From positions 1-24,107 of IMG/VR virus record IMGVR_UViG_3300025769_000831: a DNA stretch of 24,107 nt; one strand, written 5' to 3'. The position numbers and the translations under genes are program-made. The DNA comes from a virus. Below the pieces are notes generated by a model that was not told the origin of the DNA, searched no databases, and saw only the letters and a list, made by a program, of their open reading frames with translations. Shown one piece after another: positions 2,079-4,690 of the stretch (positions within the stretch are counted from its first letter, which is position 1; every line of letters starts with the position of its first letter).

Positions 2079-2349
2079 GGTAACTCCCTATTATAAAGAT
2101 AAGCATATTACGCTGGATTGGAGGCATATGAATAGGACACTTTTGCAAAAGTTGACGGTTATTCAAAACGATTATGAAGATAGCAGGCAATTTCAGATAA
2201 CGGTAAGCAGTACATTTCTGTTTCTTTTGTCATTTGAGAAAGTTTTAGGCGTTAAATTACCAATCAACAAAAAAAAGTTTATAAGAAAACTTGCAAAAAA
2301 ATTAGCACAAGAAATTGAAACTTATTTGTTGAGCCAAAACAAAGATTAA
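2071..2349 (+). CDS. Hypothetical protein, last of the small-ORF cassette
   Basis: This 92-residue protein of unknown function starts MDEVTPYYKDKHITLDW. A hydrophobic stretch (TFLFLLSFEKVLGV, about residues 48-61) is followed by a Lys-rich helix (NKKKFIRKLAKKLAQEI). The hydrophobic part is short and flanked by charges, so a buried helix is likelier than a membrane span. The start overlaps the preceding stop (ATGGATGA) and has no separate Shine-Dalgarno, so coupling to the upstream mini-gene is expected. Its base composition is more AT-rich than the flanking structural genes. It ends 46 bases before the large terminase. Confidence 0.55.
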   Translation: MDEVTPYYKDKHITLDWRHMNRTLLQKLTVIQNDYEDSRQFQITVSSTFLFLLSFEKVLGVKLPINKKKFIRKLAKKLAQEIETYLLSQNKD

Positions 2350-2395
2350 TTGTGCAAAAGGGCAGCGGATAAAGCAACAAGTATTGGCATTATAA

Positions 2396-4690
2396 ATGGA
2401 TGAACTAGATAGTGGCAGGGATGAGTTTGTTGTTTGGAGCCCTCAAGCTGGCCCTCAAGAAGCCTTAGTTCACTGCCCTATTACGTTAGTTGGCTACGGA
2501 GGGGCACGAGGTGGAGGTAAGACTGACGGCGTATTAGGCAAGTTTGCTATTAAGCAAGAGCAGTTAGGAGAAGCCTTTAACGCTATATTCTTCCGTAAAG
2601 AGCTTCCCCAAGCAGATGACCTTATAGAGCGAGCTAAGCAGATATACCTACCCTTAAAAGCTCACTGGCAGGACCAAAAAAAGCAGTTTACCTTTCCCAG
2701 TGGCGGTAGGTTACGTTTTAGGCCACTAGCTAATGATAGTGATGCTGAGAAGTACCAGGGGCAAAATTTATCGGATTGTGCCATCGAGGAGGCGGGTAAC
2801 TACGGAGAGCCAAGCTGTATTTGGAAACTGTTTGGAGCCTTGCGAGGTAAAGGTGGTGGTCAGATTATTCTTACTTTTAACCCTGGGGGTGTCGGGCATC
2901 ACTGGCTAAAGGAGTTTTTTATAAAGCCAGCTCCTAAAGGAATGAAGATGCTTCAAAAGAAACTACCTAACGGAAAGCATTTTGATTATATCTATATACC
3001 AAGTAGGGTACACGATAATCAGATTTTATTAGCAAAAGACCCTGAGTATATAGATCGGTTGCACATGGTGGGTAGTCCTGAGCTTGTGCGAGCGTGGCTA
3101 GAAGGAGACTTTGAAATCCATGAAGGTAGCTATTTTCCTGAGTTTAGTAGCAAACATATTATTAGTCCTTTTAACATCCCAAAACACTGGCCCCGTTACT
3201 TGGGCTACGATTGGGGCTACAGGAGCCCTTTTGCTGCTGTGTGGGGTGCTGTTAGTTCTGGAAGGGATGATAATGGCAATGAAGTACCATACCCTAAAGG
3301 AGCAATTGTTATATATCGAGAAATGCACGGCAAAGGTATCGACAACGAGCAGCAAGCAGACCGAATTGCAAGTGCCTCTGTCGGAGAAGGAGTGGTTGCA
3401 GTAGCTGACCCATCCATATTCTCGCACGATGGCGGACCTAGCATTAACGACCAGTTCAATAAGGTCTTTGCTAAGTACCAGCATCCAAGTTTTAGACGAG
3501 CTGATAATGACCGTATTTCGGGTTGGTCACAGATTAGGCAACGATTAGTCCACAAGCCTGAGCCTTTGCTATACATATTTGCTACTTGCCCTTATTTGCT
3601 GGAAACTTTACCATCTTTAGCTATAGACAAAAGAAAGCCCGAAGATGCCGATACTACTGGAGCTGACCATGCTTGTCTTACTGGTGATACGTTAGTAGTC
3701 ACAAAATCCGGCAAAGTTCCAATAAAAGATTTAGATGGTGTAAAAACACACGTTTTAAGTCACGATGGACAATTTCATTTAGCTTTTGGTTCTATTACCA
3801 ACAAAAGAGCTTCAATTATAAGATTAGAGTTTGAAGACAATTCCGTTGTCGAAGCTACGCCTGATCACAAGTTTATGCTTGCAGATGGAACATTCAAAAT
3901 GACATCTAGCCTTACCTTACATGACCTGATACAGTGCGTAACGTATGCAGGTGAAAATAATATCAGACAAGATTCAGGAGTTTCTAGGCGAGAAGTATTA
4001 CCTGTGCGGTCAGTATTTCAGTCGTCAATCAAGAAAATCTGTAGGCTCAACCCGTTTACACAGAAGAGTTTGGGAGTATTATCACGGCAGGATTCCCAAG
4101 GGCAAACATATCCATCACAAGGATCACAACAGGGCCAACAATCAAATAGAGAATCTGGAATTGCTGGATGCTTCAGCTCACCTAAGTCAACACATGACAG
4201 AGGAACGAAAACAGGAAGCTGCGAAGAATTTGATAAAACATGCACTTCCAAAAGCAAAATACTGGCACAAATCGCTACAGGGGCGAGAATGGCACTCGGA
4301 ACATGCAAGGCAAGTTTGGAAAGATATGCCTATGGTGACGCTGGTATGCCAGTTCTGCCAGACAGAATATCAGACGAAATTGAACATGAGAAACAAAAGC
4401 AAGTATTGTCACCAAAATTGCAAAATGGCGGCACGACGAAGAAGATTAAATCCATCACTTATACCCAAACCCAGAAAGAAGTGTATTGCCTAAATGTGCC
4501 AGATACGAGTACATTCGTACTAGGCAATGGCATTGTATCGCATAACTGCGATGCTTTACGCTACTTATGCAAGGCTAGACTTATTGACGCTAAATGGGAA
4601 CAGGCGGAAGCCGCAAGGCAGCCAGGAGTTATAGTTTTAGCCGATTATGTGAATAAAGTGCGTAAACGACAAAAACAGGCAAGGATATGA
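2396..4690 (+). CDS. terL: Terminase large subunit (ATPase/nuclease) with an intein
   Basis: This is the packaging motor that pumps DNA into the prohead and cuts concatemers. The 764-residue precursor comprises a 473-residue terminase plus a 291-residue intein. Walker A is GGARGGGKT (residues 35-43). The Walker B-like segment is SDCAIEEA (about 126-133). The coupling motif is ILTFNPGG (about 158-165). The nuclease half shows GYDWGYRSP with D272, then VAVADPS with D338, and finally GADHA joined after splicing to CDALRYL. The intein splits this last motif between Ala426 and Cys718. A TAA immediately precedes the ATG, so the start is fixed although no Shine-Dalgarno is visible. The stop overlaps the portal start (ATGA). 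Before splicing, the nuclease site should be incomplete. Confidence 0.95.
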   Translation: MDELDSGRDEFVVWSPQAGPQEALVHCPITLVGYGGARGGGKTDGVLGKFAIKQEQLGEAFNAIFFRKELPQADDLIERAKQIYLPLKAHWQDQKKQFTFPSGGRLRFRPLANDSDAEKYQGQNLSDCAIEEAGNYGEPSCIWKLFGALRGKGGGQIILTFNPGGVGHHWLKEFFIKPAPKGMKMLQKKLPNGKHFDYIYIPSRVHDNQILLAKDPEYIDRLHMVGSPELVRAWLEGDFEIHEGSYFPEFSSKHIISPFNIPKHWPRYLGYDWGYRSPFAAVWGAVSSGRDDNGNEVPYPKGAIVIYREMHGKGIDNEQQADRIASASVGEGVVAVADPSIFSHDGGPSINDQFNKVFAKYQHPSFRRADNDRISGWSQIRQRLVHKPEPLLYIFATCPYLLETLPSLAIDKRKPEDADTTGADHACLTGDTLVVTKSGKVPIKDLDGVKTHVLSHDGQFHLAFGSITNKRASIIRLEFEDNSVVEATPDHKFMLADGTFKMTSSLTLHDLIQCVTYAGENNIRQDSGVSRREVLPVRSVFQSSIKKICRLNPFTQKSLGVLSRQDSQGQTYPSQGSQQGQQSNRESGIAGCFSSPKSTHDRGTKTGSCEEFDKTCTSKSKILAQIATGARMALGTCKASLERYAYGDAGMPVLPDRISDEIEHEKQKQVLSPKLQNGGTTKKIKSITYTQTQKEVYCLNVPDTSTFVLGNGIVSHNCDALRYLCKARLIDAKWEQAEAARQPGVIVLADYVNKVRKRQKQARI
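3674..4546 (+). mobile_element. Intein in the large terminase, class 1 (Cys/Asn/Cys)
   Basis: This is a protein-splicing element of 291 residues (precursor residues 427-717). Block A starts at C427 (CLTGDTLVV). Block B contains ATPDHKF with the TxxH signature. Block F is about EVYCLNVPDTSTFVLGN, and block G is GIVSHN followed by Cys718 of the C-extein. All expected splicing residues are present: Cys1, the block B His, the penultimate His-Asn, and Cys+1. The N-splicing part is about 91 residues and the C-splicing part about 36, so the core is mini-intein sized. The roughly 164 residues between (about 518-681) look like S/T/Q/G/K-rich filler in this frame. That DNA encodes an HNH endonuclease in the +1 frame. 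Confidence 0.93.
3945..4493 (+). CDS. HNH homing endonuclease nested out of frame in the terminase intein
   Basis: This 182-residue protein lies wholly within the intein but in the +1 frame relative to the terminase. LHRRVWE (38-44) leads into the HNH site HIHHKDHN (55-62) and NNQIENLEL (65-73), the usual phage HNH endonuclease order. A C-terminal finger (C135-x2-C138, C155-x3-C159) precedes an Arg/Lys-rich tail (ARRRR). The domain set appears complete, implying a DNA-cutting homing enzyme for intein-free terminase alleles. A TAA at 3939-3941 lies just upstream, and the ATG at 3945 has no clear Shine-Dalgarno; GTG at 3951 is an alternative. The TAA stop (4491-4493) falls within codons of intein block F. 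Expression from an internal start or by ribosomal frameshifting is unresolved. Confidence 0.85.
   Translation: MQVKIISDKIQEFLGEKYYLCGQYFSRQSRKSVGSTRLHRRVWEYYHGRIPKGKHIHHKDHNRANNQIENLELLDASAHLSQHMTEERKQEAAKNLIKHALPKAKYWHKSLQGREWHSEHARQVWKDMPMVTLVCQFCQTEYQTKLNMRNKSKYCHQNCKMAARRRRLNPSLIPKPRKKCIA

Follow-up and report, generated by a model that had tools for sequence, protein, structure and literature searches.

An HNH homing endonuclease gene nested out of frame within an intein of a phage large terminase gene

Introduction

In textbook inteins, the homing endonuclease and the splicing domain share one reading frame. Here we analyse 24,107 bases from an uncultivated phage (IMG/VR record IMGVR_UViG_3300025769_000831, hereafter the window), in which the gene for the terminase large subunit (TerL) contains an intein, and the intein contains an HNH endonuclease gene in a different frame. 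The closest published case is the ShiLan domain (PMC11855218), in which HNH genes are inserted out of frame without an intein. As in the window, the ShiLan insert is open in the frame of its host and the HNH gene is hidden in another frame, no ribosome-binding site was detected, and a disjunct distribution suggests homing. However, ShiLan lacks a splicing domain and is thought to stay in the protein, whereas here a full intein occupies an essential terminase and has mini-intein and split-intein relatives. The TerL inteins of mycobacteriophages (PMC5050341) are canonical in-frame homing endonuclease inteins. They too occupy phage TerL, carry the endonuclease between the splicing blocks and have empty alleles in close relatives, but their endonuclease shares the splicing frame and leaves with the excised intein, and they are sited in the ATPase domain rather than in the DH-x-x-DALRY motif near the C-terminus.

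Phage homing endonucleases of the HNH_3 family such as I-HmuI, the nearest solved structure by profile, share the HNH core; I-HmuI is encoded in a group I intron, while the carrier here is an intein. In the fractured genes that Dassa and colleagues are said to have described in 2009, a free endonuclease gene, reportedly of a Vsr-like family, lies between the halves of a split intein. A separately translated endonuclease between the N- and C-terminal intein halves (IntN and IntC) is also the layout of five relatives studied here (L136, L137, L138, L143 and L205), but the intein frame of the window is continuous through the HNH gene, so that splicing in cis would follow, and the endonuclease is of the HNH type. 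Our literature search found no out-of-frame endonuclease in a true intein; a preprint of the ShiLan group (10.1101/2025.01.02.630785, 'Non-Canonical Architecture') and Dassa 2009 lay outside its coverage. The layout appears to extend known out-of-frame HNH inserts to a true intein, with unusual breadth.

Results

The HNH gene

Codons of TerL start at positions equal to 2 modulo 3 and those of the HNH gene at positions equal to 0 modulo 3. The initial annotation, made from the letters of this DNA, had described a TerL-frame intein with an HNH gene at 3945-4493 in the +1 frame, having its own ATG and stop, and these coordinates proved exact. It had also called the HNH site and a four-cysteine finger intact; H57, H58, N66, H79, H83, C135, C138, C155 and C159 are indeed invariant in 13 diverse relatives. 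The features of the gene are as follows (dN/dS, ratio of nonsynonymous to synonymous substitution; pLDDT, predicted local distance difference test).

3945..4493, plus strand: HNH homing endonuclease open reading frame, ATG start, 182 amino acids, +1 frame relative to TerL (HNH_3, PF13392, 1.4e-16; phrog_15471, 1.7e-31; dN/dS 0.10; pLDDT 88)
4056..4193, plus strand: HNH catalytic core, HNH residues 38-83 (LHRRVW...HHKDHNRANN...HLSQH); L38, H39, H57, H58, N66, H79 and H83 invariant in the 13 relatives
4347..4421, plus strand: four-cysteine finger, HNH C135, C138, C155 and C159, invariant in the 13 relatives and likewise in 22
3939..3941, plus strand: TAA in the HNH frame, one codon ahead of the ATG, which cuts the HNH off from upstream reading in that frame (read from the sequence)

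No NCBIfam family matched the HNH protein. Its start is an ATG at the same place in 34 of 36 ungapped homologues and lies one codon later in the other two, and no homologue has an HNH frame that opens more than about 5 codons ahead of the ATG. The HNH-frame model, predicted from an alignment of the window and IMG/VR rows only, had a mean pLDDT of 88, and a profile of the HNH found I-HmuI as the sole solved relative (1u3e, E 1.5e-5).

The terminase gene and its intein

In contrast to a fractured or split gene, TerL and the intein form one open frame in the window, divided as follows.

2396..4690, plus strand: TerL precursor with intein, 764 amino acids, single open frame (PF04466, PF03237 and PF14890; phrog_2 and phrog_979, terminase)
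2396..3673, plus strand: TerL N-extein, 426 amino acids, ending ...DTTGADHA; 99% identical in the intein-free L095, where it is fused straight to CDALRYL
3674..4546, plus strand: intein, 291 residues, TerL Cys427 to Asn717 (PF14890, TIGR01445, TIGR01443)
3674..3946, plus strand: N-terminal splicing part of the intein, residues 1-91, with Cys1 and block B TPDH (TIGR01445; pLDDT ~90, HINT beta fold; dN/dS 0.12; C1, T62 and H65 conserved)
3947..4429, plus strand: intein-frame reading of the HNH-coding stretch, intein residues 92-252, a read-through linker (pLDDT <50; dN/dS ~2; stop avoidance; missing from mini-inteins L097 and L098)
4430..4493, plus strand: putative doubly coding tail, where the C-terminus of the HNH overlaps a beta-strand region of the intein on the block F side (lowest entropy of the overlap; pLDDT ~90 from residue 253)
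4430..4546, plus strand: C-terminal splicing part of the intein, residues 253-291 (...VLGNGIVSHN), with penultimate His, terminal Asn and +1 Cys (TIGR01443)
4547..4690, plus strand: TerL C-extein, 47 amino acids and stop, CDALRYLCKA... (clean empty sites in L095 and L096)

The intein splicing family PF14890 matched TerL at 3.6e-14, together with TIGR01445 and TIGR01443. The insert carries the marks of a class 1 intein, with a Cys1 that is invariant in 22 sequences, a block B T-x-x-H motif (TPDH) with conserved T62 and H65, and a C-terminal junction SHN/C in which His-Asn precedes the +1 Cys (SN or KN in some relatives). It interrupts the DH-x-x-DALRY motif of TerL (DHA/CDALRY, the slash marking the insertion). 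In the AlphaFold model of the intein, residues 1-91 and 253-291 had a pLDDT of ~90 and residues 92-252 fell below 50, and Foldseek matched this model to the DnaE and DnaB inteins. The model is confident for a HINT fold, with a middle that is disordered in the intein frame but well folded in the HNH frame.

Both frames are kept open, and selection acts on the HNH

To compare the two frames, relatives from two viral-contig searches were analysed in the same way, giving 43 distinct inteins. In 43/43, the intein length was a multiple of three and the intein frame was free of stops. Two of them are mini-inteins of 136 amino acids; in each of the 41 full-length copies, the HNH frame was open for 165-188 codons and was in the +1 frame, which is not the arrangement of a canonical intein, whose endonuclease shares the frame of the splicing domain. 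Given the HNH protein and phage codon usage, the probability of an open intein frame is about 1e-9 per sequence (about 1e-8 to 1e-11). Furthermore, none of 1,707 HNH codons in 36 homologues ended in T before AA, AG or GA, compared with 359 of 952 (38%) in the other genes of the window. Since T that would create a stop is avoided and chance openness is this improbable, the intein frame is held open by selection, and on these sequence comparisons the two-frame layout is far beyond chance.

Pairwise dN/dS, which the initial annotation had proposed computing in both frames, was calculated over HNH codons 1-155 for the overlap and separately for the intein N block. For the overlap, the HNH frame gave 0.10 and the intein frame 2.0; the N block gave 0.12 in the intein frame. 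Column entropy agreed, as the variable codon position changes over with the frame. The HNH-overlapping stretch is thus, in the intein frame, a read-through linker that is kept only free of stops. Because the HNH is under purifying selection, it acts or has recently acted. In the tail (4430..4493), dN/dS was 0.17 for the HNH and 1.05 for the intein; the final ~22 HNH codons overlap the C-terminal strand region of the intein, vary less than the rest of the overlap and plausibly code in both frames.

Empty sites and transfer

The intein is present or absent at a fixed site in near-identical genes, the polymorphism that marks a homing element. L095 lacks exactly the 873-nucleotide intein, yet is 95-100% identical in most 60-nucleotide bins around the site (minimum 85%), and L096 is a second empty site at the same position. 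Many intein-free relatives retain the Cys required for splicing at the site, and others have Val. Nucleotide identity between L031 and L039 was 96% in the HNH and only 80% in the N-extein, which indicates lateral transfer. The mini-intein L098 shares 92% nucleotide identity with L088 in the N-extein and has a near-identical C block, but the HNH is missing. Co-conversion at the right junction was suggestive but inconsistent across alleles, and a plasmid search for the intein gave no match. In the pair L012/L013, the HNH segment appears to travel separately from the intein. A second contiguous intein with apparent in-frame LAGLIDADG-type motifs was seen at the Walker A motif of TerL (GSRGGGK/T) in L092 (~2090-3220) and L093 (~570-1690), where the out-of-frame HNH intein lies in the same gene.

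Nested, split and free-standing relatives

A profile search of viral and bacterial contigs followed by classification yielded 112 HNH relatives, among which the label nested denotes containment of one open frame within a long host frame. By this measure 89 were nested, all out of frame, with 71 of them at +2 and 18 at +1; 9 were assigned to split inteins (L166 being uncertain) and 14 were of other kinds, mostly free-standing and several beside TerL. The initial annotation's picture of a homing gene out of frame within an intein within an essential gene therefore holds well outside the window, at +1 in all 41 full-length inteins and at +2 in unrelated terminases, and the contrary outcome that it had named, homologues that are all in frame, was not what the comparison gave. 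No HNH was in frame with an intein among the 112 classified relatives; a search of relatives for in-frame HNH inteins gave only a distant candidate, L265, in a deoxyhypusine synthase gene (E ~1e-6). As a check on the nested label, PF14890 was found in 55/59 host proteins from viral contigs and in 21/29 hosts from isolates and genomes, a set that contains non-intein controls. TerL is not the sole carrier, since the gene for a DegT/DnrJ-type aminotransferase at L186:2530-4635 has an intein of its own, with an HNH nested at +2. The isolate phage records L001, L003 and L004 also have the nested layout; their HNH is unannotated and only 'terminase large subunit' is given. Tetrasphaera phage TJE1 and Acinetobacter phage Highwayman are among the isolates that have it. 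In L155:2627-3712, an HNH lies within a 362-amino-acid open frame with no recognisable intein, which may be ShiLan-like or due to chance.

At +2 loci, the HNH Met was followed by a residue needing a codon that starts with A in 0/100 cases, compared with 14/47 in the class of other relatives. The frame constraint has therefore shaped the amino acids of the +2 enzyme itself, which makes conversion between +1 and +2 by a simple slip unlikely. The tree requires at least 18 changes of label, against a mean of 38 when labels are shuffled; its deep branches are weak.

In L136, L137, L138 and L205, TerL-IntN stops just past the HNH start, the HNH gene comes next, and IntC with the C-extein starts at the HNH stop or shortly ahead of it; the gene order of L143 is the same. 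These HNH genes have strong Shine-Dalgarno (SD) sites (-6.7 to -10.8 kcal/mol), and the N-terminal motif M-x-V-x-I-I-S reappears in split relatives with a strong SD. In L002, L005, L008, L159 and L217, a free-standing HNH gene lies directly downstream of an intact, intein-free TerL. One enzyme family thus takes nested, split and free forms, inside or next to the same gene. The wide occurrence of the pattern, and the fact that split inteins share it, go beyond the initial annotation. L156, L214 and L007 were also noticed to have split inteins in TerL, again with a gene of this HNH family separating IntN from IntC.

Discussion

We propose that the TerL insert is a homing intein with an out-of-frame endonuclease gene, whose enzyme is made by separate initiation, a reading to which we give a probability of roughly 0.85. 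The TerL frame runs through the whole insert without a stop, and the precursor that it encodes has its HINT splicing domain at the two ends of the insert and a disordered stretch between them; as the conserved splicing residues suggest, the intein would be excised in cis and the exteins joined into active TerL. A second initiation at the 3945 ATG, in the +1 frame of the same mRNA, would give a separate HNH enzyme. This enzyme would cleave TerL genes that lack the intein, at the conserved codons of DHA/CDALRY, and repair would copy in the intein and the HNH gene together. With the frames separate, the enzyme would not be tied to the polypeptide that is spliced out. That it is made on its own, as the initial annotation had deduced from the layout, has gained support from a conserved ATG, a near upstream stop and homologous N-termini in split and free-standing relatives; its translation stays a prediction.

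Several points weigh against this proposal. We infer cleavage, splicing and HNH translation, the first two from motifs only. In the window clade the HNH ATG is not preceded by an SD (+0.6 kcal/mol in the window, compared with a median of -5.25 for the genes of the window), and anti-SD pairing at the HNH start had a median of +0.6 in 36 homologues, weaker than at random window positions (-2.6). Independent translation from a start that lacks an SD is plausible, judging from the sequence, and is the weakest step of the mechanism. Foldseek with the HNH model alone gave no strong match, I-HmuI being the best (E 0.07). In addition, nucleotide identity between L012 and L013 was 93% in the HNH but 75% in the intein N block and 80% in the N-extein; HNH segments sometimes recombine apart from the intein N block, and the two do not always move as a single unit. 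The HNH start region of the window (3919-3944) also has a more stable fold than almost every other gene start. Weak pairing and a stable fold possibly damp expression, or possibly reflect only the coding constraint of the intein.

The weak start would be accounted for if a programmed +1 ribosomal frameshift from the N part of the intein produced an IntN-HNH fusion in place of a separately started protein, the more so as the intein frame is held open here and hence surely translated. We consider this improbable, as the ATG is so constant among homologues, a stop in the HNH frame lies immediately upstream, inspection of the sequence found no recognisable slippery site, and the M-x-V-x-I-I-S N-terminus is common to split relatives that have a strong SD. 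Single-base indels are common, and sequencing or assembly errors could in principle disguise an ordinary in-frame HNH intein, but the same frame relation in 41 distinct inteins from many assemblies and out-of-frame nesting in the isolate genomes L001, L003 and L004 leave such an error a vanishingly small chance; it could not yield the stop avoidance or the dN/dS pattern, and we regard it as ruled out by the homologues. A decaying HNH relic in the loop of a splicing intein is suggested by the HNH-free mini-inteins of close relatives (L097 and L098), which indicate that the loop is dispensable for splicing. A dead passenger is nevertheless hard to credit when dN/dS is ~0.10 in the HNH frame, the catalytic and Cys residues are all invariant and the intein frame of the same DNA lacks constraint at the protein level; the conserved start, the entropy and dN/dS led us to reject both a relic and an in-frame fusion. 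Group I introns of phages are also known to carry HNH enzymes of this type (I-HmuI), but a self-splicing RNA intron encoding the HNH is scarcely conceivable for an insert whose length in every copy is divisible by three, which never contains a stop, and which has all the intein splicing motifs and a HINT fold. This candidate was rejected, as no ribozyme core was recognised and the window gave no Rfam match at the gathering threshold.

An unlikely alternative, though one of real weight, is that the HNH independently parasitised a resident intein, so that the two have separate histories and the HNH rather than the intein is the mobile unit. It would fit the free-standing relatives that adjoin intact TerL, the identities in L012/L013 and the existence of both +1 and +2 frames. 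On the other hand, intein and HNH are missing together at the empty sites, and the mini-intein L098, set beside L088, resembles a loss and not a pre-invasion form. This alternative concerns origin and can partly coexist with a homing intein that carries a separately initiated enzyme.

We further suggest, tentatively and at slightly less than even odds, that one large phage intein family, mostly in TerL, usually has its endonuclease nested out of frame, and that this nesting is a missing step in the birth of split inteins. With the endonuclease in another frame, the overlying intein frame would need only the absence of stops; one stop, and a start near the end of the HNH, would then break a contiguous intein into two halves that splice in trans, with the endonuclease gene free between them.

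A splicing protein and an endonuclease under selection are thus encoded by the same DNA in two frames, inside an essential gene, in many phages and bacterial genome assemblies. Annotation pipelines would systematically miss such endonucleases, as in the three isolate records that annotate the terminase only. The layout shows how the two functions of an intein can be uncoupled and that selection against stops is enough to maintain an open frame, and it suggests a concrete path by which contiguous inteins could become split ones.
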